Origin: a virus
Strand: one strand, 5' to 3'
Virus record (IMG/VR): IMGVR_UViG_3300020428_000082
Span: 1-24,129 of that record
Length of the DNA stretch: 24,129 bases
Below, piece by piece: positions 10,054 to 23,691 of this stretch. Numbering within the stretch: position 1 is the first letter of the stretch; each line of letters opens with the position of its first letter. The position numbers and the translations under genes were made by a program. The notes beneath the pieces are model-generated. The model was not told where the DNA came from and did not search any database. It saw nothing but the letters and a program-made list of their open reading frames with translations.

Positions 10054-10962
10054 TTATTTGATTTTTTTGCTATCGTCAATAGATTTAAGAGGGCGACTAC
10101 CTTGATATAAGTCATCGAAGAACCGACCACAATACTGAAATTCGCCAACATGAGTGATGTAATCTTTTACATATATATGAACTTTTCCCCCTATATCAGC
10201 CCATCTTTGACAGAAGCCAAAGTCTTCACCAAAATAACGCTTAGTTTTAGGGTCATGTAAAGTATCAAAGAGGTTCCACATATTGTCTTTTCTTTCTTCT
10301 TTACCATTAATATAAGTAGGTTGAAACACTTCTAACTCAGGGTAAGCTTTAATCATCTTTTCCAATACTTCTCTTTTAATTAACATACACCCCGTAGGAG
10401 CATGAGTTATTTCTACTACTCCATCTTTTGTCTCAATACGATTTGGATCTTCTACTTTTAAAGGAAAAGTATAACCAGCTTTAGTTAAGCTATCTACATC
10501 TGTAATAGCATCTTTTTTAGTCTCTAATCTTCGCCATACTTTATCCCAATCAAAACTTTTCATTGGATAAGGACAAGCTATAACATCTTTATCTTTCTCG
10601 AGCATAGTAAAGATAGTCTTAGATTGAAAGTCTATGTCTGAGTCTATGAATAATAAGTGAGTATATTTATCTGCATGGTTCAACATTTCAGCTACACATA
10701 GGTTTCTACCCTGAGTAACTAAGGATGATTTCATTAAAGTAAAACTACATAAGATATTTCTTCTCATACAGTCTTGTTGAAATTTTAAAACAGCTTGGCA
10801 GTAATGCATAGATACATCACTATGAACCGGAGTACATACCATAATCTTATGGGGAGATCTCATCCCTATATTAATAGTAGTTACTTCTGTATCCTTTTCA
10901 GGTGACTCATTAAACCATATGGGCTCATTGTTTGCGCTTTGCGCTTTACTACTTTTTTCCAT
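10054..10962 (-). CDS. GT-A fold glycosyltransferase
   Basis: The 302-aa protein would move a sugar from a nucleotide-sugar donor to an acceptor using a metal-bound DxD motif. The start of the Rossmann-like domain is IMVCTPVHSDVSMHY (40-54). The DxD motif is LFIDSDIDF (104-112), followed by ACPYPMKSFDW (129-139). An acceptor-side APTGCMLIKR (188-197) is followed by YFGEDFGFCQRW (243-254), whose Glu-Asp resembles the catalytic-base region of GT2- or Anp1-like enzymes. HVGEF (271-275) may supply the last metal ligand. No signal peptide or membrane helix is seen, so it should be cytoplasmic. Its start overlaps the end of the upstream GT4-like gene by 14 bases, with GGAG 8 bases before the ATG, so the two are likely co-translated. 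Acceptor and sugar are unknown. Confidence 0.85.
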   Translation of the reverse strand: MEKSSKAQSANNEPIWFNESPEKDTEVTTINIGMRSPHKIMVCTPVHSDVSMHYCQAVLKFQQDCMRRNILCSFTLMKSSLVTQGRNLCVAEMLNHADKYTHLLFIDSDIDFQSKTIFTMLEKDKDVIACPYPMKSFDWDKVWRRLETKKDAITDVDSLTKAGYTFPLKVEDPNRIETKDGVVEITHAPTGCMLIKREVLEKMIKAYPELEVFQPTYINGKEERKDNMWNLFDTLHDPKTKRYFGEDFGFCQRWADIGGKVHIYVKDYITHVGEFQYCGRFFDDLYQGSRPLKSIDDSKKIK

Positions 10963-11890
10963 ATTGCACCGCTCCTTCCAAAAATCTTTTCCATGAAGAA
11001 CCTATTTTGCCCCATCCATAATATACTTGAGCGTAGCTTGATTGACATTCTAAATGATTGTGTATCTGTTCATCATGTAAGGTTTTAGCTGCAGCTTCAA
11101 TAGCATAGCCGAACTTTGAAGCTAGCCTTCGATAGTTAGAATCATATTGAACATACATAGGAAACTCAGCACCAGTTTCATAGATAGCTCCATAGTCAGT
11201 TGTAATACAATACAAACCTGCGGCCATAGATTCTAGTAAAGATATACAAAACGTTTCTTCAAAAATACTTGGGTAAACATACATGTTATAATCTTTTAAA
11301 TGATCTTTGATATATTCATTAGATTTATACCCAATGTAATTTACATTAGGAAGTTTTCTAGCTTGCTCATATAAAGCTTTATAATTGTGATCGTTTTGAT
11401 CGTAAAAATCTTTTCCATATACTTCAGTTGAAGAATAAACATCACAAGTAATCAAAGGATTAGTAACCTTTTGCATAGCACCTAAAAGAACAGAAAGTCC
11501 TCTCCACGGTGTGTTGTGATGTATAATTTTAATTGGTTTACCTTTTTGATAAGGTGCAACTGGTGTTATTTTATCTATACCATTCTTTATAACAATGCAT
11601 CTTTCTTCAGGTATACCAAAGACCATTCTAAATTTTTCATAATTCCAATGACTATTAAAGACATACCAATCATACTTTTTGTGATTAGATTTATCTTTAA
11701 ACCATGGGTAAAGATTACCTTGATCATAAGAATTTTTTTGCCACAGAATATTTATTTTATTGGGGTGTAAAGGAATTTTTTCTGGAACGGATGTACATAT
11801 TTGAACTTCTGATAGTAGTTTTGCATCTACATATCTGTTTAAATATTCTAACTGTAATTCTGTTCCGCCTCTAGGATTTTGATTTACCAT
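10949..11890 (-). CDS. GT-B fold glycosyltransferase, GT4-like
   Basis: The 313-aa protein fits a retaining GT4-type transferase. The N-terminus has the glycine loop RGGTELQLEYL (7-17), and the C-terminal domain begins near 113. That domain shows IKIIHHNTPWRGLSVLL (120-136), LPNVNYIGYKSNEYI (180-194) and the nucleotide-binding E-x7-E region YPSIFEETFCISLLESMAAG (206-225; E212 and E220). The N-terminal domain is shorter than usual, and the gene starts almost directly at the glycine loop. That start is fixed by a 20-base overlap with the preceding small gene, so the enzyme may be a compact viral form. It pairs with the GT-A enzyme directly downstream. Candidate acceptors are virion proteins, host lipopolysaccharide or modified DNA (inference). 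Confidence 0.85.
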   Translation of the reverse strand: MVNQNPRGGTELQLEYLNRYVDAKLLSEVQICTSVPEKIPLHPNKINILWQKNSYDQGNLYPWFKDKSNHKKYDWYVFNSHWNYEKFRMVFGIPEERCIVIKNGIDKITPVAPYQKGKPIKIIHHNTPWRGLSVLLGAMQKVTNPLITCDVYSSTEVYGKDFYDQNDHNYKALYEQARKLPNVNYIGYKSNEYIKDHLKDYNMYVYPSIFEETFCISLLESMAAGLYCITTDYGAIYETGAEFPMYVQYDSNYRRLASKFGYAIEAAAKTLHDEQIHNHLECQSSYAQVYYGWGKIGSSWKRFLEGAVQYGKK

Positions 11891-12557: not shown

Positions 12558-13303
12558 AAGCCAACTACTCCTCCTTGAGCCATGTGAGGTCCATAACTTC
12601 CTCTACCTGGATTTGTAAATCCACCTTTATCAGTTCCAGTTGCTCCAGACTTATCTCCTCTATCTGGTGTACTATAATTTTTTACGCTAGAATCTCCATG
12701 TCTTGATAACGCTATTTGACGTTGAATGTCGGCGTGTTTTTGCTGTTTAGCTTTTTGAATTGCTTTTTCCATTACACTACCATCACCTAATCCATGTTTT
12801 TGACTTGAATAATAATCTTCAATAATAGGTTTTAGTTGTTTAAATTTATTGATACTTGCAATGCTTCCTTCACCTGGTTTACCTAAAAATTGTCCGGAAA
12901 GAATTCCTGCAAGTGTTGGAGGATAAAGACCCATGTGATTAACATTCTTACCTTGTAAAGTTTGATACAGACCTGAAGTAGCATGTTGGTATGTAGGAAC
13001 AGTTTGAAGTTCCCATTCACCATCTTCATTCATAACGGCAATTTCTTGCATCTTCATGCTGTCTTCTATTAGATTTCCAAAGTCTCCAAAACCAGTGTAG
13101 CCATCGTTTCCTCCGCCACCGCCTTGGTTTTGTTGTTGCATTAATAACAATAATTGTTCTGGAGTTAAACCTTGAGCTGGTGAAGTTTGACTAATTGCTG
13201 GTGTTGTAGTTGTAGCACTGGTTCCTGTGTTTCCAAAAATAGGATCAATCGAAGGTAAACCTTGATTTAAATATTTTGTTATATCATCAAAAACTACAGC
13301 CAT
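12545..13303 (-). CDS. Phage structural protein with terminal GG-x-VG motif
   Basis: I place the start at the ATG at 13303 (MAVVFDDITKYLNQG), giving 252 residues, because GGGAGAAG (13307-13314) precedes it and the ATG overlaps the stop of the upstream gene as TAATG. A longer frame from 13354 would overlap that gene by 52 bases. Low-complexity Thr/Ser/Pro and Gln/Gly stretches (about 25-85, with LTPEQLLLLMQQQNQGGGGG) are followed by an ordered part with GLYPPTLAGILSGQFLGKPGEGSI (about 143-166) and a basic helix rich in Lys, Gln and Ala. The C-terminus is MAQGGVVGLWRN, related to GG-x-VG segments in two other proteins of this operon. Probably a virion or assembly protein; no enzymatic motif is seen. 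Confidence 0.75.
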   Translation of the reverse strand: MAVVFDDITKYLNQGLPSIDPIFGNTGTSATTTTPAISQTSPAQGLTPEQLLLLMQQQNQGGGGGNDGYTGFGDFGNLIEDSMKMQEIAVMNEDGEWELQTVPTYQHATSGLYQTLQGKNVNHMGLYPPTLAGILSGQFLGKPGEGSIASINKFKQLKPIIEDYYSSQKHGLGDGSVMEKAIQKAKQQKHADIQRQIALSRHGDSSVKNYSTPDRGDKSGATGTDKGGFTNPGRGSYGPHMAQGGVVGLWRN

Positions 13304-15267
13304 TATCTTCTCCCGTCTGGTTGAGCGTCTAATCTCAATGTGCCATAACGCCATGTTTCACCAGTAGCGTCGTTAGCTATTTTTATAGCAAGTAGTCTTC
13401 CTCTTGCCCGAGTATCTATCTTATCAGTAGTAGATGTAACTGTAAAGGGTCCTAAAGGAGAACTTGCAGCAGTGTTGTTAGGATAGTTATTTATAAATAA
13501 AGTTATTTTAGAATTACCTGTTAGATATTTAAAATCAGGTATAAATTCACTCACCGACATAAAGAATTCTCCATCCCCTCTGTAATCAGCAATTCCTGTT
13601 GCCTGACCCAAAGGACTTTTTCTCATTGTAATGTCATAATCTCCAGACTTAATATAGGCAGATATAGCAGTTGTACCAGAACTGTTGACTTGATCAGTCC
13701 CTGTCTCATGAGCATAGTATATAGAAGCTCCATACTTATTTGTAATACCGCTAATCTTTGAAAACACCGGGGTAGCGGTGTCATCGTAATCTGTTGCATA
13801 AGGCAATTGAAATACTCCTTGATCTACATAAGTAGTTCTATCTACAGAAGAGACAGTCCATGCTTGATCAGAAAAATTAAATGTTACACATCTATCTATT
13901 TGGTCCGAGCCTGACTTAGGATAGAACCAATTAATTTCTGTGTATAAACTGTTTGGTGAAGAAAAAACAACATCAGATGAATCATAGTTTAAACCTAGGT
14001 TATCTCCATTAGTTGTAAATACAAAATCTTCTACAGAAGAACTTAAAGATTTAACCGTACCATCATACGCAAAAAATCCACCTTCTGATGCCATCCACCA
14101 GACTGTACCATTTGCATAAGAAACAGCATGCTGACCTATGCATCCGCAATTGGTTCCTACCTGTCTTACGGAAAAAGTAAATGGTGGACCAACAAACTGA
14201 ATTACATAAGCTGCTAAATCAGTTAAAACAAATACATAATCTTTACCTTGAATAGCTGCTCTAATTTCATTTCCAGTATCTAGTCTAAATGTACCGGCAG
14301 TATTAGTAGCTGTTGGGTTATAAGTATTTAAATCTTCTTGGTTAGAAAATCTAACAAACATCGGATCTTGAGTAGCAGGGGTTCCAATAGTTGTTTCAGT
14401 TCCAAAATGAAATAAGTGTCTATCTCGGTCGGATACTAAAGTCATTCGAGTAGCCGTTGGGTTATTAGTTGTGTTAAAATTAGTTGTTGATTGAGAAGCT
14501 CTTATAGATCGTGGATTAACCGCCCCGGCATCCCACGTAAAAGTTTTTCCATTAAAGATAGTTGCAACTAAAACTTCTCCAAAGTTATCCAGACTCCAGT
14601 TTCCTGGTGCCAGAGTCACGTTACTTGTTGGTCGTTCTGTGCCCCATGTAGAGTTGCCCCAAAGATATGTACCCCATCCATAACCTACCGTTTGAATAGT
14701 TGGTCCTACTATTACGTATGGATTAATAGTTGCGCTTCCCGTTCCAGAAGAAGCTCCGGCTCCGGCAGCAATTGGAGTTTGTATAGTAAATTCGTTATCG
14801 TTTGGAACACTTAAAACTTCAAAAGCAGTGTCTGTAAACGTAGAAGAACTGCTAAATCCATTAGGTGTTACAACACTTGTAAAGGTTAAATATCTTCCAA
14901 CATCTAATCCATGAGCTGTAGAGTTAACTGTAACAGTGGCTGAACCATCAACAGTGTCAAACGTAGCCCCTGCAATCGCTGTATCTAAGGGAGTAATGTC
15001 ATAAAAAGCTTCGCCATAATATAAAAATAAACCTTGGGATGTTCCAATAGCTGTGTACTTTTCACCTTTGAAACTAGCGAAAGCATGTTGATCTCTTGCT
15101 GCTCCTGGTAAAGTATCATTAGCCTGTGTGAGTTGTCTCCATCCTCCCATTTTTTCAGGGAAGCCATATCTAAATCTTACGAAATCTCCATCTGTCCACT
15201 GGCTTTCTGCCCCAGATTCTGTGGCTTGTTTATTAAATCCGGGTTTAAAATTAAGTTTTTGTAGCAT
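13303..15267 (-). CDS. Neck/tail hub protein, P22 gp10 (DNA stabilisation)-like
   Basis: The 654-aa protein opens with LNFKPGFNKQATESG and WTDGDFVRFRYGFPEKMGGW (about 24-43). A run of beta strands and Trp/Gly-rich turns follows (YGWGTYLWGNSTWGTERP, about 199-216), consistent with a beta-propeller. An inserted beta module near 102-160 contains GSATVTVNSTAHGLDVGRYLTF and FEVLSVPNDNEFTIQTP. Later blades include RDRHLFHFGTE, AAYVIQFVGPPFTFSVRQVG and VWWMASEGGFFAYDG. This organisation matches the type of protein I know as P22 gp10-like or phage stabilisation protein, which closes the portal and links head to tail in short-tailed phages. It follows the oxygenase cassette after a 33-base gap and is coupled to the next gene by TAATG. 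The family call is from pattern recall. Confidence 0.7.
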   Translation of the reverse strand: MLQKLNFKPGFNKQATESGAESQWTDGDFVRFRYGFPEKMGGWRQLTQANDTLPGAARDQHAFASFKGEKYTAIGTSQGLFLYYGEAFYDITPLDTAIAGATFDTVDGSATVTVNSTAHGLDVGRYLTFTSVVTPNGFSSSSTFTDTAFEVLSVPNDNEFTIQTPIAAGAGASSGTGSATINPYVIVGPTIQTVGYGWGTYLWGNSTWGTERPTSNVTLAPGNWSLDNFGEVLVATIFNGKTFTWDAGAVNPRSIRASQSTTNFNTTNNPTATRMTLVSDRDRHLFHFGTETTIGTPATQDPMFVRFSNQEDLNTYNPTATNTAGTFRLDTGNEIRAAIQGKDYVFVLTDLAAYVIQFVGPPFTFSVRQVGTNCGCIGQHAVSYANGTVWWMASEGGFFAYDGTVKSLSSSVEDFVFTTNGDNLGLNYDSSDVVFSSPNSLYTEINWFYPKSGSDQIDRCVTFNFSDQAWTVSSVDRTTYVDQGVFQLPYATDYDDTATPVFSKISGITNKYGASIYYAHETGTDQVNSSGTTAISAYIKSGDYDITMRKSPLGQATGIADYRGDGEFFMSVSEFIPDFKYLTGNSKITLFINNYPNNTAASSPLGPFTVTSTTDKIDTRARGRLLAIKIANDATGETWRYGTLRLDAQPDGRR

Positions 15268-15300: not shown

Positions 15301-15897
15301 TTATATCTTAAATTGACCAACAGTTCCATTGTTTTTTGTAATCTCTCCGTACTCACCCCTCAGAATTATATCAAAAGCTATAGACATTCGGGGTTTATCT
15401 TCAGTATTTAGATCAACATAATGGTATACGTAGGATGGAAAAAAAATAACATCATCTTTTGAAGGAACATGTTTTATAACAGTCGTATTATATTTGTTAT
15501 ACTCTTTAATAATAGGTAAAAAAGGAATTGCATAAGGTCTTAAGAATCCAATAGAAGCAATCTTAGGGCTTTCACTTAAATAAAATACCCCACTTAAAAA
15601 TGTATTTTGATGATTATGTGGAGGATGTACATTGTTTTTTGTATGAGTATTTAACCACATCGATACTACTTCTGGCTGATAGCCATCAATAATTTGATAA
15701 TATTTACGAGCAATGTCTAATGCGCTCATTTCTATTTTTTCAATAAGAGGATCAAAGTAATTATCCTTTTGTAGATAAATAGTCTGTCCTCCTTCTTTCT
15801 TAATATAAGCACTGTTTTCTATATCCAAATAATTGGATACCCCTGGGTATTTATCAGTGAACAGTCCTACAGAAAATTCGGCAGCTTCTTTTATCAT
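15301..15897 (-). CDS. 2OG-Fe(II) oxygenase, HxH type (PF13759-like) - cassette member 1
   Basis: The 198-aa protein fits the 'putative 2OG-Fe(II) oxygenase' group of cupin-fold dioxygenases, which use O2 and 2-oxoglutarate at a single iron to hydroxylate a substrate. The core reads PPHNHQNTFLSGVFYL (92-107). H94 and H96 stand where most families have HxD, as I recall for this group. The distal His is in VIFFPSYVYHYVD (H159), and the 2-oxoglutarate-binding Arg is R170 in PRMSIAFDI. The N-terminal half (1-80) is helical and may hold substrate specificity. It is the last gene of the cassette, one base after the previous stop, with no ribosome binding site, so coupling is likely. Closest relative in the window: the 209-aa member at 17211. 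Substrate unknown. Confidence 0.85.
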   Translation of the reverse strand: MIKEAAEFSVGLFTDKYPGVSNYLDIENSAYIKKEGGQTIYLQKDNYFDPLIEKIEMSALDIARKYYQIIDGYQPEVVSMWLNTHTKNNVHPPHNHQNTFLSGVFYLSESPKIASIGFLRPYAIPFLPIIKEYNKYNTTVIKHVPSKDDVIFFPSYVYHYVDLNTEDKPRMSIAFDIILRGEYGEITKNNGTVGQFKI

Positions 15898-15898
15898 A

Positions 15899-16384
15899 TT
15901 AAAAATAATTAATGTTTATAGTTATCCTTACTTTTGAATCCGTGCAAGTGGTACTGCAATGAGGATCGTGTGAATTAAAGTGTACAATTCTGTTAGCTAT
16001 GGACCCAATATTCTTCTTATATTTTTTCATTTTAGTAAAGCCGTTATTAGTATTGACGTAATATAACGCGGTCTTACAATCAAAATTATGGTCTGAATGA
16101 TACTTATGTTTTACTAGCTTTTCTGTTCTTCCATATAGATTAGCTTTAATCCTAATAATAGACTTAGGATTTAATTTTTTAATTATAGGTTTAACTAGAT
16201 CCCATCCTACTGGACTTCTTATTTCATGATCTACAAATATCATATGAGCTAAATAAAAATTATCATCATCTTTTTGAGTTCCCACATATGGTATGTAATA
16301 CCAAGGAAACCAATTTCCCATTACAGAACTTTGTAATTTATAAAAGTCCTCTTTAGGTAAAAAGTTATCTTCTATCTTTATCAT
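15899..16384 (-). CDS. 2OG-Fe(II) oxygenase, HxD type - cassette member 2
   Basis: The 161-aa protein is a minimal double-stranded beta-helix oxygenase. It starts with IEDNFLPKEDFYKL (4-17) and the aromatic FPWYYIPYVG (26-35). The iron triad is H96-S-D98 (KYHSDHNF) and, by alignment to FNSHDPHCSTTCTD, H142. R153 in KVRITININY would bind 2-oxoglutarate. The strand CKTALYYVNTNNGFT follows the HxD as expected. It resembles small oxygenases I know from cyanophages (FPWYY near the start, NINY at the end) and the cassette member at 19338. Its ATG overlaps the stop of the preceding gene (ATGA). Protein, nucleic acid or small-molecule substrates are all possible. Confidence 0.85.
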   Translation of the reverse strand: MIKIEDNFLPKEDFYKLQSSVMGNWFPWYYIPYVGTQKDDDNFYLAHMIFVDHEIRSPVGWDLVKPIIKKLNPKSIIRIKANLYGRTEKLVKHKYHSDHNFDCKTALYYVNTNNGFTKMKKYKKNIGSIANRIVHFNSHDPHCSTTCTDSKVRITININYF

Positions 16385-16701
16385 TTAACTAATATCATGT
16401 TCCAATCTAATTTAAATATTAAGTCTTCTAAGACTACCTTTTTCATCTTATTGTCTTTCAAATACTGATGTAATTCTTCTATATCTACTATAATATATTG
16501 ATCTTTAATATCAAATACCATTTTATCTGCTTTAGTTTTAAAAGAGCCAGCTTTAGCATTCTCTTTGTTTAAAGGTCTTGTATCAAACTTTAACATCTGA
16601 TTAGATCTATCTTTTATAATCCCCTGTATGTCCCACCATTCTTTTTTCTTTTGTGCAGGGGTAGCATAAGTTACAGATTCTAGTTTATTTATAAAGCTCA
16701 T
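16381..16701 (-). CDS. Unrecognised 106-aa protein embedded in the oxygenase cassette
   Basis: I place the start at the ATG at 16701 (MSFINKLESVTYATP), giving a 17-base overlap with the upstream gene. A longer start at 16737 adds MKKLLFPLTLVL and would look like a signal peptide, but it overlaps the conserved C-terminus of the upstream gene by 53 bases and has no ribosome binding site. The protein has KKKEWWDIQGIIKDRSNQML (about 17-36), a Lys-rich middle and alternating charged and hydrophobic strands and helices (DQYIIVDIEELHQYL, VVLEDLIFKLDW). No HxD...H triad is present, so it is not an oxygenase. The C-terminal half looks alpha/beta. It ends with an ATGA overlap into cassette member 2. 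Function unknown; an adaptor or partner of the neighbouring enzymes is conceivable. Confidence 0.65.
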   Translation of the reverse strand: MSFINKLESVTYATPAQKKKEWWDIQGIIKDRSNQMLKFDTRPLNKENAKAGSFKTKADKMVFDIKDQYIIVDIEELHQYLKDNKMKKVVLEDLIFKLDWNMILVK

Positions 16702-17224
16702 CAAAACAAGTGTTAAAGGAAATAATAATTTTTTCATCGTCCATAGTATTAGGAGGTGAGCGATGCATCATACTAGCAGGGAATGTTAACATCTGACCTT
16801 CAGTAATATCTATAGTCTTAATTATTTTTTTATCTTTTAAATCATATATCTCAGTCTTTAAAGATGGTGTAGGTAACTTAACAAAATATACATTAGTGTA
16901 GTCTGCTTCAGGGTGGGTATGCCAGTCATGAAAATCTCCTTTAATATATTTTTGACACCAAAAATTAACAACTCTCCATTTCTTCATGTTTAATTGTTCC
17001 GCCATTTTAATAAGATAAGGTTTAAGAGCTTCGTAGAATATAGGTAAATATTCTCTACGTTGATCTCTTGGTAAATTCCAATCAGTTAAAGAAATTTTTT
17101 CTCTATCAGTATCTATATTAGAGTTAGGTAATTTATGAATAGCATTAATAATTTTATTTTTAATTTGTCTATGTTCTTTAATATCTGTAACAATATAAAA
17201 GCTGGGTATACTATATAATTTCAT
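16685..17224 (-). CDS. 2OG-Fe(II) oxygenase-like protein, HxH type - cassette member 3
   Basis: The protein has 179 residues. The core is NFWCQKYIKGDFHDWHTHPEADYTNVYFV (87-115), with H99, H102 and H104 available as proximal ligands in a WHxHP arrangement. The distal histidine is H154 in LTFPASMMHRSPPN, and the position of the 2-oxoglutarate-binding Arg appears to be K165 (EKIIISFN). The 'wHtHp...yvyfv...fPs...HrSppN' pattern matches small HxH-type oxygenases of marine phages, so the Lys may be a family trait rather than damage. The N-terminal 80 residues are mainly helical (EALKPYLIKMAEQLNMKKW). It overlaps the upstream gene by 14 bases, and its end overlaps the unrecognised gene. No ribosome binding site is visible. 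Substrate unknown. Confidence 0.8.
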   Translation of the reverse strand: MKLYSIPSFYIVTDIKEHRQIKNKIINAIHKLPNSNIDTDREKISLTDWNLPRDQRREYLPIFYEALKPYLIKMAEQLNMKKWRVVNFWCQKYIKGDFHDWHTHPEADYTNVYFVKLPTPSLKTEIYDLKDKKIIKTIDITEGQMLTFPASMMHRSPPNTMDDEKIIISFNTCFDELYK

Positions 17225-17840
17225 GTTGTGTGTAAGCTTCGTTTCCTAACATTCCTGTTACAAAATAGTTAGCTCCCACTGCAATCCTTTCTCCCCCTCC
17301 AATATTAGGAGTTGTACCATGCATTATAAAACCTGGAAAGACAGCTATGTTACCAGCCTGTTGGGGAACAGTCCAAGATGTAGAATTGTATTCATTATAT
17401 TTTGTAATGGAGTAATCAAAATAAAATTGTTCTTCTAATATAGATTTGTCCACACTAAATCTTAAATTACCTGCTTTTACTTTGGCATAGTAAACTACAC
17501 TAAATAAAACATTCTGATGCCTATGGCCATGATGTTCTTGACCTTCTTGTTGGTAAGCTCCCCAACTATGTGTCATTTTTATTTTATTAGATATACCTAA
17601 AGTATCATCTCTATAAATCATAGCAACTGTATCAATGGTGTCAGCTAACTCAGATAAATAGTCATACTTTAATATATTTTGGTTTTTTGTTAAGTGAGCT
17701 CCTCGTTCTTTAAATCTTGTGTCTTGCTTAGCTTCTTTTTTAATTTTATTTATCTTAGCTTCAGATAACAGAAAATCTGTTTCATAAACTCTAATAGGTA
17801 ATCCACACAAACCAATCTTATGTATTTGTTTTATTTCCAT
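17211..17840 (-). CDS. 2OG-Fe(II) oxygenase, HxH type (PF13759-like) - cassette member 4
   Basis: The protein has 209 residues. The metal-binding part is QEHHGHRHQNVLFSVVYYA (101-119), unusually rich in His (103, 104, 106, 108). By alignment with member 1, H106 and H108 are the proximal pair. The distal end is AVFPGFIMHGTTPNIGGGERIAVGANYF (166-193), with H174 and R185. Ahead of the core lies IKMTHSWGAYQQEG, a strand leading into the beta-helix. Residues 1-80 form a helical N-terminal part. It looks like a paralogue of member 1 at the level of motif layout but is clearly different in sequence, so it is not a recent duplicate. It overlaps member 5 by 10 bases and member 3 by 14 bases. Confidence 0.85.
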   Translation of the reverse strand: MEIKQIHKIGLCGLPIRVYETDFLLSEAKINKIKKEAKQDTRFKERGAHLTKNQNILKYDYLSELADTIDTVAMIYRDDTLGISNKIKMTHSWGAYQQEGQEHHGHRHQNVLFSVVYYAKVKAGNLRFSVDKSILEEQFYFDYSITKYNEYNSTSWTVPQQAGNIAVFPGFIMHGTTPNIGGGERIAVGANYFVTGMLGNEAYTQHEII

Positions 17841-18367
17841 TTGGGTCCTGTCATAAATATAGTTCCAGTTATTCTTTCCCCTTGAGTTACCGGAGAAACT
17901 TTATGTAAGTAAAAACTAGGAAAAGTAAATAACGTACCAGGTTCATTTAATTCTTTTATCAATACTTCTTTTCCATCAAATATAAAAAAGTCTCCGCCTT
18001 GGTATGGTTTTTCTGATAGATTAATTAAAGTTGTAAGCTTACTTGTATAATTACTTTGATGAGGTTCGGAATCAAAATGCCACTTATATTGTCCCTGATG
18101 CTTGGAGCTATATACGTTTTGCACAACCGGATCATTTATATTCTCATATAAATCTACCCCAAAAGCTTCACGATTAATCCAAAGAATAGCGCTTTTAAAA
18201 TCTTTAATTTTATTAAGTTCAGCGTAAGGAAAGGTAGTGCATGTAGAAGTTTTAATCGTTGGAGCTGATTTATGAAAAGGTTTTCCGGTCCTCTTAGCAA
18301 CCGAATTAATCTTTTTAATTTCTTTCGTATTTAAAAAATTTTTCATAAAAAAATATGTAAACTTCAT
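17831..18367 (-). CDS. 2OG-Fe(II) oxygenase, prolyl-hydroxylase (PKHD/P4H-like) type - cassette member 5
   Basis: I use the ATG at 18367 (MKFTYFFMKNFL), giving 178 residues, since it forms an ATGA overlap with the previous stop. The longer frame begins with a TTG inside the preceding gene. The protein shows the classic prolyl-4-hydroxylase layout: YKWHFDSEPHQSN with H97 and D99, then LTTLINLSEKPYQGGDFFIF (112-131), then GTLFTFPSFYLHKVSPVTQGERI with H155 and R165. These residues bind Fe(II) and 2-oxoglutarate. PKHD-type enzymes hydroxylate Pro or other side chains in proteins, or small molecules such as siderophores. This member and the 208-aa member at 21742 form the most canonical pair in the cassette. 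Substrate unknown. Confidence 0.9.
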   Translation of the reverse strand: MKFTYFFMKNFLNTKEIKKINSVAKRTGKPFHKSAPTIKTSTCTTFPYAELNKIKDFKSAILWINREAFGVDLYENINDPVVQNVYSSKHQGQYKWHFDSEPHQSNYTSKLTTLINLSEKPYQGGDFFIFDGKEVLIKELNEPGTLFTFPSFYLHKVSPVTQGERITGTIFMTGPKWK

Positions 18368-18885
18368 TTTTTCATCCAATCTACTATTAAGTGTATTCTA
18401 TCTTTATTACTTTTATTTATAACAGAATGATATTTATTTGCATTATTTATTTCCCACATCTCGCCTTCTTTTAAATGCTTTTCTTCATTATCTATATTAA
18501 ATATAACGTCTTTATGAGTTACTAAAGGAATGTGAGTTCTAGCACATAACACTAAACTTGCTCCCTTATCAATGTGAGGTGTTATCTCTGACTTAGCTGG
18601 AAGCATAACTAGAATAGCTCTTATTATATACCCCGGACCTATTTTGTCTTTATAAACATCTTTTAAATCTTCCATTTGAGTTTCAAATACACTGTAATTA
18701 ATATGATACGTAGGGTTATCTATTCTAAAATCTTTATCAAATATAAGTGGAATAGTTTTGGTTTGTTGATGAACTTCAAATGTTTTTTGTCTCCAATTAA
18801 ATTCATCCCAATCTTTTTCTATTTCCTGTAATTTATGTTTAAACATAGATACATCAACAGAAGTTATAAATTTATAATTAAACAT
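18364..18885 (-). CDS. Aspartyl/asparaginyl beta-hydroxylase (AspH-like) - cassette member 6
   Basis: The 173-aa protein matches the AspH family rather than the prolyl-hydroxylase group. The motif set is ITPHIDKGASLVLCARTHIPL (101-121), with H104-I-D106 as proximal ligands and R116/H118 of the characteristic R-x-H-x-P-L strand. Then follow KHLKEGEMWEINNANKYHSVINKS (136-159), with distal H153, and DRIHLIVDW (162-170), with R163 for 2-oxoglutarate. Bacterial AspH-like enzymes add a beta-hydroxyl to Asp or Asn in proteins, or to free or carrier-bound amino acids in biosynthesis. The 'pGe.we.nn...Hsv.N.s...RiHLi.D' ending is diagnostic. It overlaps the upstream member by 8 bases and the downstream member by 4 bases. 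A side-chain acceptor is likely, but its identity is unknown. Confidence 0.9.
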   Translation of the reverse strand: MFNYKFITSVDVSMFKHKLQEIEKDWDEFNWRQKTFEVHQQTKTIPLIFDKDFRIDNPTYHINYSVFETQMEDLKDVYKDKIGPGYIIRAILVMLPAKSEITPHIDKGASLVLCARTHIPLVTHKDVIFNIDNEEKHLKEGEMWEINNANKYHSVINKSNKDRIHLIVDWMKK

Positions 18886-19345
18886 ATTTTGTCTTGAATA
18901 CTAAAGATATTCTTACATCTCCTTTATTAATAGGTGCATGACCTTTATGTAATTTTTTTGCATCAAAGCAAATTAATCTTCCTTGAACAAAAGGTATTTT
19001 CTTTTCACCTTTTATTTCAAAATACCCTCCTTTCTTTAAAGTTTTAGTTACCATATATAAACAAGTTACATCTCCATCGTCCCAATGAAAAACCCCCTCC
19101 ATACCTGGATGTTGAATATTAATATAAGCTCTTAATATCTCTACTTTATTATCTAATGTCTTTAGAAGTTTTGTATATAAGTATTTGTTTAATCCATCAT
19201 GAGGATTTAAATTAGAATTGTAAAATTCTGATGTTGTTTTGGCTGCCGATTTATGTCCATAGAAATGAGGAAACTCATATAAAAAATACTCATCTAAATA
19301 CTCTATTAAATCTTTAGGTAACCAATTATCTATTTGCTTAAGCAT
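18878..19345 (-). CDS. 2OG-Fe(II) oxygenase, compact HxD type - cassette member 7
   Basis: The 155-aa protein starts MLKQIDNWLPKDLIEYLDEYF, the usual helical entry of small P4H-like enzymes. The core is GVFHWDDGDVTCLYMVTKTLKKGGYFEI (84-111), with H87-W-D89 as proximal ligands. The distal part is GRLICFDAKKLHKGHAPINKGDVRISLVFK (122-151), where H133 or H136 is the third ligand and R145 binds 2-oxoglutarate. The spacing from H133 to R145 (12) is slightly longer than the 10 seen in members 5, 8 and 11, so the exact ligand is uncertain. There is no signal peptide. It overlaps its upstream neighbour by 8 bases and has no ribosome binding site. Substrate unknown. Confidence 0.85.
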   Translation of the reverse strand: MLKQIDNWLPKDLIEYLDEYFLYEFPHFYGHKSAAKTTSEFYNSNLNPHDGLNKYLYTKLLKTLDNKVEILRAYINIQHPGMEGVFHWDDGDVTCLYMVTKTLKKGGYFEIKGEKKIPFVQGRLICFDAKKLHKGHAPINKGDVRISLVFKTKYV

Positions 19346-19823
19346 AGTTAATATTAAACACCACCCTTCTATCTACATCTGTTTGACTAACTCCCCTATG
19401 CAAAGTCTCTCCAGGGAAAATAATTATTTTATTTTCTTCTGTTTCAATAAATTTTTCTTTGCCATCTATCATTAAAACGGTTCCTCCATTGCAGGTATTT
19501 AAATAAAATATAGCTGTTTTAAGATTAGGTACTTTATAATCTGTATGCAGGTCTGAAGTGTAGGGTTTATCTTCTCTAGTTGTCATATTACATCGAGCAC
19601 AAATTAAAATATTACAGTGTATTTGTTCTAAAATAGGCACTATCCATTCTTCATAATGTGGAGATTGAACTCTAGCTTCTCTATAAAAAGTATGGTTAAA
19701 CCAATAATGATCTTTGTTAACCATATTGTCTCTCCAATACCAGGGAAAATGTTGAGAAAAAACTCTACCTTTTATCTTTTTTATTAATTCAGGTGGTAAT
19801 AAATTTTTAATTGTTGTTACCAT
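19338..19823 (-). CDS. 2OG-Fe(II) oxygenase, HxD type - cassette member 8
   Basis: I use the ATG at 19823 (MVTTIKNLLPPEL), giving 161 residues; the longer frame starts with a TTG further inside the upstream gene. N-terminal features are VFSQHFPWYWRDN (about 21-33). The iron site is SDLHTDYKVPNLKTAIFYLNTCNGGTVLMIDGKE, with H93-T-D95. Distal H142 lies in IIIFPGETLHRGVSQTD, and R152 or R153 lies in DRRVVFNINYA. The FPWYW entry, the 'kTAifYlNtcnGgT' strand and the NINY end make it the nearest relative of member 2 in the window. It overlaps the preceding gene by 17 bases and the next by 8. A complete active site suggests a working enzyme. Confidence 0.87.
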   Translation of the reverse strand: MVTTIKNLLPPELIKKIKGRVFSQHFPWYWRDNMVNKDHYWFNHTFYREARVQSPHYEEWIVPILEQIHCNILICARCNMTTREDKPYTSDLHTDYKVPNLKTAIFYLNTCNGGTVLMIDGKEKFIETEENKIIIFPGETLHRGVSQTDVDRRVVFNINYA

Positions 19824-20421
19824 ATATATAAAAATCAAAGTTAATAACGGTTCGTATATTACAATTTACCGGATTGTTGCCAGCATGATATTGATTGCCC
19901 TCAAACCAAACGCCATCACCTTGTTTAGGAGTTTGTCTTTCAGCCGGTTTTAAATTTAAAAGATTAGGTTCTGGTTGACCTAACTTAAATTTTTCATTAA
20001 ACCAAATGGTGTCTCCATCTGAATCTTCAAAATAATATATTAATGATTTATAATCTTGTTGATCATCTAAGTCTGTGTGAGGAAAATTATATTTATCTAA
20101 CGTATGCCCTGCAACAGGGAATGTTCTTCGTAATCTACATCTTAACATTTCTTTTATGTTAAACCCTGTTCTTTTTTCAAAACTAGCTAAGATAGGATGA
20201 AAGAATTCATAATAATGTGAGTTAATTCCTTTAGGATATAAATATAAAACATGTTCTAGTGCAAAAGTTTCTGTTATGTTTTTAAACTTTTTAAAGTTAG
20301 TATTTCTTCCTCTAATTATATTATCTGCATGGTACCAAGGAAAAGTATTATTATTAATTAACTCTAAGAAAAAAATTTGATACTTGGGTTCTATTAAATC
20401 TTTTAAAACTGTTTTTAACAT
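19807..20421 (-). CDS. 2OG-Fe(II) oxygenase, HxD type - cassette member 9
   Basis: I use the ATG at 20421 (MLKTVLKDLIEPKY), giving 204 residues. The longer frame begins with a GTG deep in the upstream gene, and AGGAA lies upstream of this ATG. The protein has TFPWYHADNIIRG (about 26-38), like the FPWY entries of members 2 and 8, but carries a longer middle part. The iron site is NFPHTDLDDQQDYKSLIYYFEDSDGDTIWF, with H115-T-D117. The distal part is QGDGVWFEGNQYHAGNNPVNCNIRTVINFDF, with H179 and R190. A loop of about 25 residues (PEPNLLNLKPAERQTPKQ) before the last strands is not in its relatives and may shape the substrate pocket. Substrate unknown. Confidence 0.87.
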   Translation of the reverse strand: MLKTVLKDLIEPKYQIFFLELINNNTFPWYHADNIIRGRNTNFKKFKNITETFALEHVLYLYPKGINSHYYEFFHPILASFEKRTGFNIKEMLRCRLRRTFPVAGHTLDKYNFPHTDLDDQQDYKSLIYYFEDSDGDTIWFNEKFKLGQPEPNLLNLKPAERQTPKQGDGVWFEGNQYHAGNNPVNCNIRTVINFDFYIYGNNN

Positions 20422-21008
20422 TTGTATGGTATTCCTAAGTGCGGTCTGCCGTCCCACAATGGAGACTTGTCATCCTCTGCTTTATTGTAATGTAAAAATA
20501 CTTGCACGCATTCTTTACCTTTAAATGGAGTGCGTCCATGCTCTAGTTCACAGCCCCTATAGATTACTCCATCTCCAGGTTTCATTGTTACAGTTGTTTT
20601 ATTTTCATCTTTATCTATTATGTCAAAAGGCCAATTATCTCCGCCAAGATTCAAGGTCACAGAAAACTCGCACGCTCCTCTGTCTTTATGATAATGTAAA
20701 ATATTTCCTTTTTTATATATTCTACAATAAGAATACATTTCTCTTAATTTTAAATCTGTATATTTTTCCATAATAGGTTTGACATACTGTAGTAAAGTAT
20801 CAAAAGCAGCGTCACCGTAAATAGAAAAGGCATCAGGAACTTGTAAGTCCGATCCTCCCCATTTAGTATCCCATTTATAAATTTTTTTATGTTTAATTAA
20901 ACTTTTATAAGTTCGTTCTTTTATCCTCATATACTGGTATAGAAAAGCCGCCATATTTACAGGGATAATATTTTTTATTATTACATATCCATTGTCTTTG
21001 AAACTCAT
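20415..21008 (-). CDS. 2OG-Fe(II) oxygenase-like protein, HKD type - cassette member 10
   Basis: The protein has 197 residues. It starts MSFKDNGYVIIKNIIP, the 'GYvvikn.i' opening seen in PhyH- and P4H-like phage oxygenases. The core is CRIYKKGNILHYHKDRGACEFSVTLNLGGDNWPFDI (95-130), with H107-K-D109 as proximal ligands. GDGVIYRGCELEHGRTPFKGKECVQVFLHY (145-174) gives distal H157. The expected Arg about ten residues later is missing, and Q169 sits on the last strand. The 'HYHKDR...vsl.lgg....qvFLHY' pattern recurs in my memory of phage proteins, so the change may be a subfamily trait. Its ATG overlaps the sulfotransferase stop (ATGA), so these two should be made in step. Confidence 0.85.
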   Translation of the reverse strand: MSFKDNGYVIIKNIIPVNMAAFLYQYMRIKERTYKSLIKHKKIYKWDTKWGGSDLQVPDAFSIYGDAAFDTLLQYVKPIMEKYTDLKLREMYSYCRIYKKGNILHYHKDRGACEFSVTLNLGGDNWPFDIIDKDENKTTVTMKPGDGVIYRGCELEHGRTPFKGKECVQVFLHYNKAEDDKSPLWDGRPHLGIPYKC

Positions 21009-21745
21009 AATACATCTTCTTCTTTACAGTATTCTATAAGCTCCTTTGGTAATAATTTTTTAATATTATACTTAGTTGCTTTAGGTTTTCCTAAGTTAAG
21101 TTTATGGAAATCATGACCAATAATTCTATCATCATACGTAGTATTATTGCTTTTAAAAGGTTCCTTAATATTAATATCAATTTTATTGTAAGGGATATTT
21201 ATAAATTTATGAATTTTCTTTAGTTCTTTTTCTGTATTGTTTACTAAGTCTTTATAATAAATTACAATATGTTCGTGATTATTCTTAATTATATTTTTAG
21301 TTGACATTAAATTATGACCAAAGAATCCTAAAGGTTCTAAAGCATTTGCTACAAATAGTTCAACCTCTTTAGGTTTAATTAAGTTAACTACAGAGGCCAC
21401 ACATTCTTCTAAAGGCCTATGGAGAATAATAAATTTAGGTTTAGGTATAATAGGTTGTAAAAGTTCTAGATTACCTGGTGTACCCCATGGACCTCTAATT
21501 ATTATATTATCTGCTTTCCAATTAGAAAAATAACTTTTAATTAAGTTGTTAGTCATATCTTTATAAGATTTTTCATCAGGGAAATTTCTATAAACCTCTC
21601 CTTTTTTAAGATTAGATAAATTAAATAATACATCTGGTAATATACTATTAGCCGTCATAGCTACTTTAGTAGTTTTATTAAGAAGAGCTCCTAATAAAGT
21701 ATTACCTGCACGTGGCAGACTGGACAAAAAATAATAATTTTTCAT
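21005..21745 (-). CDS. PAPS-dependent sulfotransferase
   Basis: The 246-aa protein transfers a sulfuryl group from 3'-phosphoadenylyl sulfate (PAPS) to a hydroxyl or amine. The 5'-phosphosulfate-binding loop is FLSSLPRAGNTLLGALL (6-22). The 3'-phosphate-binding region is FIILHRPLEECVASVVNL (105-122), with R110 and S118. A later VIYYKDLVNN (161-170) matches the 'YEDL' segment of the family. There is no transmembrane helix, so it acts in the cytoplasm. It lies between two oxygenase genes, with 4-base ATGA overlaps on both sides, and AGGAG about 10 bases before its ATG. This suggests that it modifies something made or hydroxylated by its neighbours (inference). Sulfotransferases are rare in phages but are known in some marine viral genomes. 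Confidence 0.9.
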   Translation of the reverse strand: MKNYYFLSSLPRAGNTLLGALLNKTTKVAMTANSILPDVLFNLSNLKKGEVYRNFPDEKSYKDMTNNLIKSYFSNWKADNIIIRGPWGTPGNLELLQPIIPKPKFIILHRPLEECVASVVNLIKPKEVELFVANALEPLGFFGHNLMSTKNIIKNNHEHIVIYYKDLVNNTEKELKKIHKFINIPYNKIDINIKEPFKSNNTTYDDRIIGHDFHKLNLGKPKATKYNIKKLLPKELIEYCKEEDVL

Positions 21746-22368
21746 TTATATGGATCTCCTAAAAACCAAACAACTAAAGAATACCTGGTTCCTTTGGTAA
21801 CTGGTTGTACTCGATGAACAGTAAAAGAAGGAAAGAAAACAACAGAACCCTGTTTATTGGTTTCATTAAAGGTAATAATGCTATTCTTTTCTGCATCCTT
21901 AGAGTTCTTAGTTGTAAATTGTAGATCGCCTCCCTCGTAATCCTTAGGATCAGATAGTAATACAGAACAAGAAATCTTTCTTATTTTGCCATGAGCCTCG
22001 TCATTAGGGGCCTCAATAGGTATACCAGTAGAATCAGCGTGCCAATTATAGTATTGTCCTTTTTTATAAATAGTGAATTGAATAGATTGTGCACTGTTTA
22101 TATTAAAATTCCAACCTGCATTTTTATTTGCAGTTAGCATAAACTTCTCTATTTTTTTAAAGATCCATAATTCATCCATCCAGACAATGTTAGAATCTCT
22201 AAAATGAGCTAAGTCTTTCCGGTCTTTTTTGCTTAATCTTTTCTTCTCTTTAAGATCAACAATAGAAGCCCTATTTACTTTTTTCTTTTTAGCTAATTTA
22301 ATAACCTTATCACAAAATTCTTTATCAAACGCTTTTTCAAAATACCAATAGGTATACTTTAAAATCAT
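21742..22368 (-). CDS. 2OG-Fe(II) oxygenase, PKHD/prolyl-hydroxylase type - cassette member 11
   Basis: The 208-aa protein is the first gene of the cassette and the most canonical. Residues 1-60 are helical and basic (KLAKKKKVNRASIVDLKEKKRLSKKDRKD). The core is FTIYKKGQYYNWHADSTG (98-115), with H110-A-D112, then KISCSVLLSDPKDYEGGDLQF (131-151). The distal part is GSVVFFPSFTVHRVQPVTKGTRYSLVVWFLGDPYK (174-208), with H185 and R195. This is close in layout to PKHD/PiuC-like hydroxylases and to the 2OG oxygenases often found in T4-like cyanophages. A predicted promoter lies just upstream (22388-22415), and a weak AAGGTAAG precedes the ATG at 22368. It could hydroxylate Pro or Lys in a virion or host protein, but no substrate is shown by the sequence. 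Confidence 0.92.
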   Translation of the reverse strand: MILKYTYWYFEKAFDKEFCDKVIKLAKKKKVNRASIVDLKEKKRLSKKDRKDLAHFRDSNIVWMDELWIFKKIEKFMLTANKNAGWNFNINSAQSIQFTIYKKGQYYNWHADSTGIPIEAPNDEAHGKIRKISCSVLLSDPKDYEGGDLQFTTKNSKDAEKNSIITFNETNKQGSVVFFPSFTVHRVQPVTKGTRYSLVVWFLGDPYK

Positions 22369-22387
22369 CTTTCTTACCTTTCATATA

Positions 22388-22415
22388 TGTATAACTTAAT
22401 TTAAAAATTAAGCAA
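22388..22415 (-). promoter_or_regulatory. Predicted promoter at the head of the oxygenase cassette
   Basis: In the 49-base gap before the first oxygenase gene, the minus strand has TTGCTT (22415-22410), a 16-base spacer and TATACA (22393-22388); a 17-base spacing gives ATACAT. Transcription would start near 22381, only about 13 bases before the ATG at 22368. The -35 box begins 2 bases past the stop of the upstream tail gene. In AT-rich DNA such matches arise by chance, but this is one of the few true gaps in the operon. Confidence 0.35.
22395..22412. repeat. Perfect 8-bp AT-rich inverted repeat inside the promoter spacer
   Basis: CTTAATTTAAAAATTAAG is an inverted repeat: two 8-base arms (CTTAATTT and AAATTAAG in minus-strand reading) around a 2-base centre. 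It fills the spacer between the predicted -35 and -10 boxes. It could be an operator-like site or a weak RNA hairpin that trims the upstream transcript. It has no GC stem and no U tract, so I do not call it a terminator. Confidence 0.4.
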
Positions 22416-22417
22416 TA

Positions 22418-22840
22418 TTAAGCAGACCAAGCAGAACCATTCCAAACTAGGAATTCTTGGCCTTCTCTTGAAGTACCTGTCCATCTTTGGTTAACTTCAT
22501 CCCAATTAATAGGATAAACGTCATCACTTTCGCCCCAAGCTGTTATATTTGGATAAGCTATAGGAGCTTGCCAGTCATGATTAGCATCTAACATCCAACT
22601 AGCATGTGGTCTTTCCTGAACAAAAACATCATCAGCAACAGCATAGTGTCCGCCTATTTGTGCAGCTTGTTTTCTGAAACTTCCAGTAGGTGAATATTGT
22701 TTATAGTTTCCAGGTCCTTTAAGATTTATACAATATTGTTCTCCGATTGCATCTCCATCAGTTGGACATGCCTCGTCATCAGTTACAAATATTGATGTTA
22801 CAACATTGTTGTCATCTAAAGTAGCAAAGTGTTTCGCCAT
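22418..22840 (-). CDS. Conserved tail-fibre-associated phage protein
   Basis: The 140-aa protein starts MAKHFATLDDNNVVTSIFVTDDEACPTDGDAIGEQYC and continues with SFRKQAAQIGGHYAVADDVFVQERPHASWMLDANHDWQAP. From memory, this pattern (an 'ak.a.id.nnvV...v.vvdn' opening, then 'tRkn.aGiGytYd...daFi...p..sW.Ld....W.pP') is common beside tail-fibre genes of cyanophages and pelagiphages. It is thought of as a tail-fibre-related protein without an assigned role. The last residues, EFLVWNGSAWSA, resemble the cell-facing end of fibre-type proteins. Its ATG overlaps the adhesin stop as TAATG. It shares a near-identical 17-base segment (encoding GSAWSA) with the partial gene at the right edge. Confidence 0.8.
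   Translation of the reverse strand: MAKHFATLDDNNVVTSIFVTDDEACPTDGDAIGEQYCINLKGPGNYKQYSPTGSFRKQAAQIGGHYAVADDVFVQERPHASWMLDANHDWQAPIAYPNITAWGESDDVYPINWDEVNQRWTGTSREGQEFLVWNGSAWSA
22422..22438 (-). repeat. 17-base direct repeat encoding GSAWSA, copy 1
   Basis: The minus strand reads GGTTCTGCTTGGTCTGC at the very end of the 140-aa tail gene. It matches 16 of 17 bases with the copy at 23810-23826 in another tail gene, and both copies are read in the frame giving GSAWSA. Confidence 0.6.
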
Positions 22841-23691
22841 TACGCTAACTCCGCCGTTCCTGTAGTTATGAATTTAGCAACCTTATCACCATTTGGTGCT
22901 GTTGATGTTGTATTACTCCCTGGAGCTACTGTCCACGTAGCTGAACTAGGAGCTCTTAAAACAATTATTCCTGTTCCGCCTGGAGCACCTGAACCATTGT
23001 CTCCCGCGCCGCCGCCTCCGCCGCCGCCGGTATTTGCCTGTCCTGCACTTCCAGATCCACCTTGTGTATTTCCGCCGGATCCTCCGCCACCAGCTCCGCC
23101 CGGACCTCCTGGTCCGCCGTAAAGATAACCACCGCCACCGCCGCCTCCAGCGTATGTAGTCGATGATCCATCAATATCTACTGTGTAGCCTGCGCCACCT
23201 GCTCTTGGTGGAGATCCTAAACCAACTGCAGAAGCTCCGCCTCCGCCAGGTCTTGGGCCTGGGCCTCCATCTTGTCCTTCTTCTGGTGTGTAACCACCTA
23301 AATTTCCTTGTCCGTCGCCGCCGCCGCCAGATCCACCTTGACCTGCACTTACACCTTGACCAACTCCTCGTCCGCCACCTGAAGATGCAAATGTTGTAAA
23401 TCCTGTGCCAGCTACTGAAGAGTCTCCGCCGTCTCCGCCGTGAGCACTTCCGCCGCCGCCAATTGTAATAGTATAACTAACTCCGGTTTCCATGATTAAT
23501 GGTTCACCGCTATCTAAAGAACCGTCACCCCAAGAAGTTCTAAAACCTCCTGCTCCGCCAGCACCGGCATAATTAAATCCGCCGCCACCGCCTCCGGCAA
23601 CAACCATATAATCTATTTCAATTCCGCCGCCTCCTGCGCCGAAACCAAATCCTTTTGAAGCTCCTGCTCCTATTGTGGCTAATAATGGCAT
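22840..23691 (-). CDS. Glycine-rich tail adhesin / receptor-binding protein
   Basis: By count, 104 of 283 residues are Gly (about 37%). A short ordered N-terminus (MPLLATIGAGASKGFGF) is followed by EIDYMVVAGGGGGGF (25-39), then ETGVSYTITIGGGGSAHGG (68-86), then long Gly runs, and a beta-like C-terminal cap (GIIVLRAPSSATWTVAPG, 241-258). This 'yliVaGGGgGg...G..y.i.vGaGG...' layout is typical of phage glycine-rich tail proteins thought to fold into packed polyglycine helices, like T4-type gp38 adhesins, and to bind the host receptor. Pro residues occur in collagen-like settings (GPGPRPGG, 143-150; GGPGGPGGA, 192-200), which are possible targets for hydroxylases. AGGAGG at 23702-23707 precedes the ATG at 23691. 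The local GC content is much higher than in the neighbours because of Gly codons. Confidence 0.85.
   Translation of the reverse strand: MPLLATIGAGASKGFGFGAGGGGIEIDYMVVAGGGGGGFNYAGAGGAGGFRTSWGDGSLDSGEPLIMETGVSYTITIGGGGSAHGGDGGDSSVAGTGFTTFASSGGGRGVGQGVSAGQGGSGGGGDGQGNLGGYTPEEGQDGGPGPRPGGGGASAVGLGSPPRAGGAGYTVDIDGSSTTYAGGGGGGGYLYGGPGGPGGAGGGGSGGNTQGGSGSAGQANTGGGGGGGAGDNGSGAPGGTGIIVLRAPSSATWTVAPGSNTTSTAPNGDKVAKFITTGTAELA

Follow-up and report, generated by a model that had tools for sequence, protein, structure and literature searches.

An array of eleven 2-oxoglutarate oxygenases in a marine phage is inherited with the tail adhesin gene, not with the phage backbone

Introduction

Why would a single phage carry eleven different oxygenases side by side? 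The question is raised by the virus record IMGVR_UViG_3300020428_000082, a stretch of 24,129 bases (the window, below), in which a run of minus-strand genes at 15301-22368 consists almost entirely of Fe(II)- and 2-oxoglutarate (2OG)-dependent oxygenases. The late genes of this virus are akin to those of the pelagiphages HTVC027P, HTVC023P and 023Pt_psg01, and its backbone virion protein, called S here, is 75% identical to the HTVC027P counterpart. These relatives, together with single-cell contigs, suggest that the host is a SAR11-like bacterium. 2OG oxygenases are common but unexplained genes in ocean phages, and HTVC023P-type pelagiphages have been described as carrying eight non-orthologous ones, a gene family expansion, with co-located "ferrochelatases" (Wittmers et al. 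2022, PMC9599517). What is new here is that the array is inherited with the gene of a tail adhesin and not with the phage backbone, and that wrong gene names had hidden contiguous arrays. Given this inheritance, the arrays probably tune host recognition by the virus.

Identity of the oxygenases

Thirteen open reading frames (ORFs) were confirmed within 15301-22368, eleven of them oxygenases and two of them other genes. That eleven of the thirteen are Fe(II)/2OG oxygenases with intact triads had been proposed from the sequence alone, and is confirmed by the ORFs, the motifs, Pfam and PHROG profiles and two structure models, the fold being predicted from the profiles and the models. Every one of the eleven has a metal triad (HxD in eight, HxH in three, each with a distal H), and at the position expected to bind 2OG, 10-14 residues past the distal H, nine of them have R, 16685 has K, and 20415, like the rest of its family, has an invariant Q. 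The genes and their neighbours, all on the minus strand, are as follows.

13303..15267, minus: backbone virion structural protein S (phrog_3287, E 8e-74); its 5' end is the cassette boundary
15301..15897, minus: 2OG-Fe(II) oxygenase of PF13759 type, HNH...H...R (PF13759 E 7e-18, phrog_81 E 6e-34)
15899..16384, minus: 2OG-Fe(II) oxygenase, phrog_274, HSD...H...R (phrog_274 E 2.5e-44; triad invariant in the phrog_274 alignment)
16381..16737, minus: small uncharacterised non-oxygenase protein, no family match; usually between array and backbone gene
16685..17224, minus: 2OG-Fe(II) oxygenase of PF13759 type, HTH...H...K (PF13759 E 4e-10, phrog_81 E 4e-29)
17211..17840, minus: 2OG-Fe(II) oxygenase of PF13759 type, HRH...H...R (PF13759 E 6e-13, phrog_81 E 5e-33)
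17831..18379, minus: 2OG-Fe(II) oxygenase, PF13640, HFD...H...R (PF13640 E 9e-11, phrog_61 E 1e-17)
18364..18885, minus: aspartyl/asparaginyl beta-hydroxylase-like oxygenase, HID...H...R (PF05118 E 2e-12; 54 viral relatives)
18878..19345, minus: 2OG-Fe(II) oxygenase, phrog_274, HWD...H...R (phrog_274 E 1e-27)
19338..19838, minus: 2OG-Fe(II) oxygenase, phrog_274, HTD...H...R (phrog_274 E 2e-40)
19807..20457, minus: 2OG-Fe(II) oxygenase, phrog_274, HTD...H...R (AlphaFold model, pLDDT 89; start possibly 12 codons downstream)
20415..21008, minus: P4H/PHD2-like 2OG-Fe(II) oxygenase, phrog_2954, HKD...H (AlphaFold model, pLDDT 93)
21005..21745, minus: sulfotransferase (PF13469 E 1e-10)
21742..22368, minus: 2OG-Fe(II) oxygenase, PF13640, PKHD-like, HAD...H...R (PF13640 E 1e-16, phrog_61 E 9e-40)
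22418..22840, minus: tail-associated gene T, putative adhesin partner or chaperone (phrog_7759 E 2e-23)
22840..23691, minus: glycine-rich tail adhesin R (PF21722 E 6e-8)

Six of the eleven pass the Pfam cut-off, in three 2OG-oxygenase families: PF13759 (15301, 16685, 17211), PF13640 (17831, 21742) and PF05118 (18364). The remaining five have PHROG matches only, to phrog_274 (15899, 18878, 19338, 19807) and phrog_2954 (20415). Structures were predicted for 20415 and 19807, one for each PHROG-only family; the other nine proteins were assigned by profiles, with 15899, 18878 and 19338 counted as oxygenases through their membership of phrog_274. In alignments, H107, D109 and H157 are invariant across 21 relatives of 20415, and across 29 phrog_274 proteins H127, D129 and H191 never vary and R202 hardly does. 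The best structural matches of the AlphaFold model of 20415 are SnoN (Z 18.3), the Pseudomonas putida P4H (Z 17.4) and PHD2 (Z about 17), while those of the 19807 model are 3dkq (Z 15.4), PiuC (Z 14.8), and PHD2 and AlkB (Z about 14), so that 2OG oxygenases head every match list. A sequence search of the PDB with these two families returned nothing meaningful, and the fold claim for them therefore rests on the predicted models. From this fold, the array proteins would be expected to perform 2OG/Fe(II)-dependent hydroxylation.

Of unrelated ORFs of 150-250 amino acids, 14% have a loose version of the triad pattern, against 95% of profile hits (853 of 902; these profiles, built up by iteration on the collected loci, may include a few false members). 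Chance is excluded as the source of eleven profile-supported hits in succession.

The genes are tightly packed. Overlaps of mostly 4-17 bases were first reported for them; eight of the twelve junctions do overlap, by 4-16 bases, one has a gap of a single base, and at the other three the overlap (32, 43 or 53 bases) depends on the choice of start codon. The homologue of 19807 in the nearest relative, locus L228, starts 12 codons downstream.

The oxygenases in the window are about 12-37% identical to one another in pairwise alignments (a few values of 50% are short end overlaps made by the aligner, and those pairs share little in alignment A2), which rules out recent tandem duplication as the main source of the array. 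For the ten that have an orthologue in L228, dN/dS is 0.06-0.19, compared with 0.28-0.39 for the neighbouring tail genes. The array oxygenases are under purifying selection and include no decayed copy, in line with the sequence-only reading, which had noted intact triads and suggested selection.

Inheritance of the array

L228, the closest relative, has an S protein only 46% identical to that of the window. Even so, it carries, in the same order and at 69-97% amino-acid identity, all but one of the eleven oxygenases together with 16381, the sulfotransferase and both tail genes. The two stretches share one 7.3-kb block, from 16377 to 23653, at 81% nucleotide identity, and the left part of the nucleotide match stops inside the 5' end of S, at about 15093. 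The converse case is seen in L040 and L024, whose S proteins are 76-79% identical to the window's, yet whose arrays have fewer genes, mostly 27-67% identical to those of the window (the exception is 18364 in L024, at 90%). Between close relatives, array content changes gene by gene.

To follow this across phages, loci were gathered from viral contigs with five queries (the backbone protein, 18364, the 20415 family, the sulfotransferase and 19338) and later with gene T. Where a locus has S, an array and T (57 loci), T and S flank the array without exception, at median distances from it of 48 bp (T) and 83 bp (S). Across pairs of loci, the Spearman correlation of array similarity is 0.51 with T and 0.31 with the glycine-rich adhesin R (Mantel p 0.002 for both), and there is none with S (0.009, p 0.40). 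Even the oxygenase that adjoins S behaves in this way (0.36 with T, 0.007 with S). The genes beyond S serve as a positive control, and they do track S: 0.78 for 12052, 0.84 and 0.77 for the glycosyltransferases 10949 and 10054, 0.43 for 8906 and 0.47 for 8061. The result is stable under subsampling and removal of close relatives (T 0.47 and S -0.05, in 40 loci). These tests use permutations for overlapping locus pairs, not trees. In 39 of 59 loci the array has T no more than 700 nt away, where 9 such loci would be expected.

The order R-T-array recurs in the T4-like cyanophage S-SM1 and in HTVC008M, and R-T-array(-S) in cellular-genome contigs found through the 20415 family, including two single-cell assemblies of Pelagibacteraceae. 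Since the array tracks T and R and not S, while the genes on the far side track S, we conclude that R, T and the oxygenases move between phage backbones as one block with its boundary near S. The glycosyltransferases 10054 and 10949 are ruled out as members of this cassette, as both track the backbone; these two glycosyltransferase-like genes, at 10054-11890 in the window, follow S closely and lie outside the swapped part.

A different behaviour is seen in the small conserved protein of the 16381 type (about 103-118 amino acids), which is found in the window and as 43 more ORFs in the collected loci, at the border of array and backbone. It tracks S (0.31, p 0.026) and not the array, and in the window it has two oxygenases between itself and S.

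The independence of 16381 and the array, and the rapid turnover of gene content at this site, are what would be expected if the oxygenases had no common function and were unrelated cargo collected by an insertion hotspot next to a recombining tail module. We regard this as improbable: what accumulates is nearly a single superfamily plus one sulfotransferase, each gene is under purifying selection, and the order R-T-array is the same in unrelated phage groups. Less probable again is a metabolic or physiological role, in which the enzymes would shift host pools of 2-oxoglutarate, succinate or iron. Such a role has been proposed for cyanophages (PMC3037559), and the transcriptome of the related HTVC027P shows host iron genes going up in mid and late infection (PMC12753301). 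An effect on pools, however, needs one abundant enzyme and not eleven diverged, individually conserved ones, and it gives no reason for the linkage to an adhesin.

Gene names

The family names attached to two of the PHROGs, "ferrochelatase" for phrog_2954 and "DNA endonuclease V" for phrog_274, are contradicted by these results. Relatives of 20415 occur in 156 phage records and, among the matches listed, most of those with a name are called ferrochelatase; 20415 has no match to the ferrochelatase family PF00762 at E up to 1, and its model matches P4H, PHD2 and SnoN at Z 16-18, which rules out ferrochelatase for 20415 and phrog_2954. Relatives of 19338 occur in 261 phage records, several of them named DNA endonuclease V or denV. 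In the window, none of the four phrog_274 proteins (15899, 18878, 19338, 19807) matches PF03013 (T4 endonuclease V, pyrimidine dimer glycosylase) at E up to 1, and together with the invariant triad and the 2OG-oxygenase fold of the 19807 model this rules out "DNA endonuclease V" for phrog_274. On the evidence of invariant triads and AlphaFold models, then, genes of both phrog_2954 and phrog_274 are 2OG oxygenases. Judging from cross-matches between PHROGs, this superfamily seems also to take in phrog_2297 ("DNA endonuclease") and phrog_3531 ("ferrochelatase"). In the phrog_3531 profile, 20415 matches the first half and 21742 the second, and this family looks like a fusion of two oxygenases.

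Could the target be nucleic acid of the phage or its host all the same, with the enzymes hydroxylating bases or carrying out AlkB-like repair? One of the structural matches of 19807 is AlkB, and a repair role has been proposed for cyanophage 2OG genes (PMC3037559). No protein has an above-cut-off Pfam hit to the AlkB or TET/JBP families, though, P4H/PHD2 and small-molecule oxygenases rank equal or higher structurally, and linkage to an adhesin would not be expected. A nucleic acid target thus seems quite improbable to us.

Searching the open-access literature, we found no prior account of the mislabelling of phrog_274 and phrog_2954 or of the co-inheritance of array and adhesin. Relabelling converts scattered genes into long arrays, and it bears on published counts: the pelagiphage pairing of 2OG oxygenases with ferrochelatases (PMC9599517) and the treatment of ferrochelatase as a separate enriched auxiliary gene (PMC11561400, via phrog2954) rest on the contradicted label, and the cyanophage "denV" count (PMC3037559) is likely affected by the phrog_274 label.

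Extent of the arrays

Runs were counted with gaps of up to 1 kb tolerated, so the sulfotransferase and 16381 leave a run unbroken. The longest among 256 non-redundant loci have 12, 11, 11, 11, 10, 10 and 10 oxygenases, and the window is one of the elevens. The others are L212 and L215 (11 each), L116 (11-12), and L117, L223 and L228 (10 each). The twelfth gene of L116 matches phrog_1644, so that 11 is the safer count there. That gene, the first of its array (320-841), has the triad pattern, and phrog_1644 is named "minor coat protein"; a PHROG scan of 23 proteins of L116 and L212 returned mostly phrog_274, 81 and 61. Median array size is 5 among the 57 arrays bounded at both ends; many contigs are fragments, and the sizes of unbounded arrays are lower bounds.

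The window's run had first been judged exceptional. It is among the longest, but an 11-gene run is not unique: arrays of 3-12 are widespread in marine phages, and the expansion in this phage group was already published (PMC9599517), as non-adjacent and partly misnamed genes. The idea of a multi-enzyme pathway stands in so far as there are eleven distinct, intact enzymes under selection; a single multi-step pathway is weak. Because genes turn over one by one between close relatives, the array resembles a tailoring set whose members can be mixed and matched more than it does a fixed pathway.

Possible targets of the enzymes

A glycine-rich domain, PF21722, is found in R of the window and in its homologues in S-SM1 and HTVC008M. 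Glycine-rich tail domains are described as receptor-binding tips in Pam3 gp24 and S16 gp38, and the Pam3 fibre as folded by the chaperone gp25 (PMC9608196). T is placed comparably to gp25, which makes it a putative adhesin partner or chaperone; it has no detectable sequence similarity to solved structures or chaperones. Among the 48 bounded arrays that have R, the length of R falls as the number of oxygenases rises (rho -0.51, uncorrected p 0.0002), and HTVC023P has its adhesin in four long copies and a small array.

Because the enzymes are inherited with a receptor-binding tip and independently of the phage backbone, they should act either on the tip or on its receptor. As target, we favour the tip over the receptor. 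In this tentative explanation, held with slightly less than even confidence, the eleven enzymes are small cytoplasmic Fe(II)/2OG oxygenases that form a tailoring set within a host-recognition module and modify the adhesin tip. The enzymes would be made late in infection, and ahead of assembly each would hydroxylate certain side chains of the new tip protein, R and perhaps also T or the fibre next to it; the sulfotransferase would add another mark. The recognition surface could then be altered by gain or loss of an enzyme as well as by mutation of the adhesin, and recombination in the conserved 5' end of S would swap adhesin and enzymes jointly between phages. A broader and more doubtful version is that such an enzyme-written, combinatorial pattern of hydroxylation and sulfation on the glycine-rich tip diversifies host recognition in marine phages, tip and enzymes being exchanged as one cassette between phage groups.

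Several points weigh against tailoring of the tip. The adhesin's role as substrate is inferred, and so are both links of the chain that leads from the fold through hydroxylation to host range; R and T are predicted virion proteins, known here from their genes. Array size showed no convincing rise with the usual target-residue content of R or T, and proline in R goes the opposite way. In about 44 uncorrected tests of R and T composition, only the aspartate fraction of R rises (rho 0.35, p 0.015), and this is lost on correction. The metagenomic loci are fragments, and the locus pairs are non-independent.

Finally, co-inheritance with the adhesin is equally expected if the enzymes and the sulfotransferase alter the host surface, or the O-chain sugars and lipids that are its precursors in the cytoplasm, blocking superinfection or the adsorption of progeny to debris; the set would then have to fit the adhesin's receptor, hence the joint inheritance. 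The glycosyltransferases of the pelagimyophage host-recognition island have been interpreted likewise (PMC7029224), a sulfotransferase sits within the array, and some members are weakly similar to sugar or natural-product oxygenases. On the other hand, the window's own glycosyltransferases (10054, 10949) belong with the backbone and not with the array, the cassette sits among virion genes, and the array is without pathway partners such as epimerases or aminotransferases. We consider remodelling of the host surface unlikely, if less so than the other rivals. The location of the array fits the original suggestion of a modification of virion or surface, and its co-inheritance with an adhesin gives a concrete place to seek oxygenase substrates, in existing isolates.

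Comparison with known systems

The fold of the 20415 family is like that of P. putida P4H and human PHD2 (Z about 17), at only 10-16% identity, and the family appears to have an invariant Q in place of the basic 2OG-binding residue. Pam3 gp24/gp25 resembles R and T in pairing a glycine-rich receptor-binding domain with a small partner gene; oxygenases are not mentioned in the parts of PMC9608196 on which this comparison draws. The pelagimyophage host recognition cluster (PMC7029224) is likewise a hypervariable tail-fibre island with modification enzymes, interpreted in terms of host recognition or coinfection avoidance. The conspicuous enzymes there are glycosyltransferases, oxygenases are not singled out, and adhesin co-inheritance is examined in the present analysis. 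HTVC008M has an additional 2OG oxygenase immediately next to a tryptophan halogenase gene in its terminase region (L234, 17199-19158).

In the isolated Synechococcus phage S-SM1 (NC_015282), nine of the eleven genes SSM1_051-061, directly downstream of R and T, are oxygenases. This phage differs in being a T4-like cyanophage; only three of the nine are so named in its record, and the others are labelled endonuclease, ferrochelatase or hypothetical. Such wrong names are why long arrays, including this one, stayed hidden. Inside the S-SM1 array, SSM1_058 (L233, 15317-16018) has weak, sub-cut-off 4Fe-4S-like matches and no oxygenase match.

The HTVC023P-type pelagiphages of Wittmers et al. (PMC9599517) belong to the same phage group as the window. 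Their oxygenases were described as nearby, non-adjacent genes with a ferrochelatase partner. In the present analysis that partner, like the phrog_274 genes, is itself an oxygenase, which is why the arrays are contiguous and longer than described, and the arrays travel with the tail adhesin.

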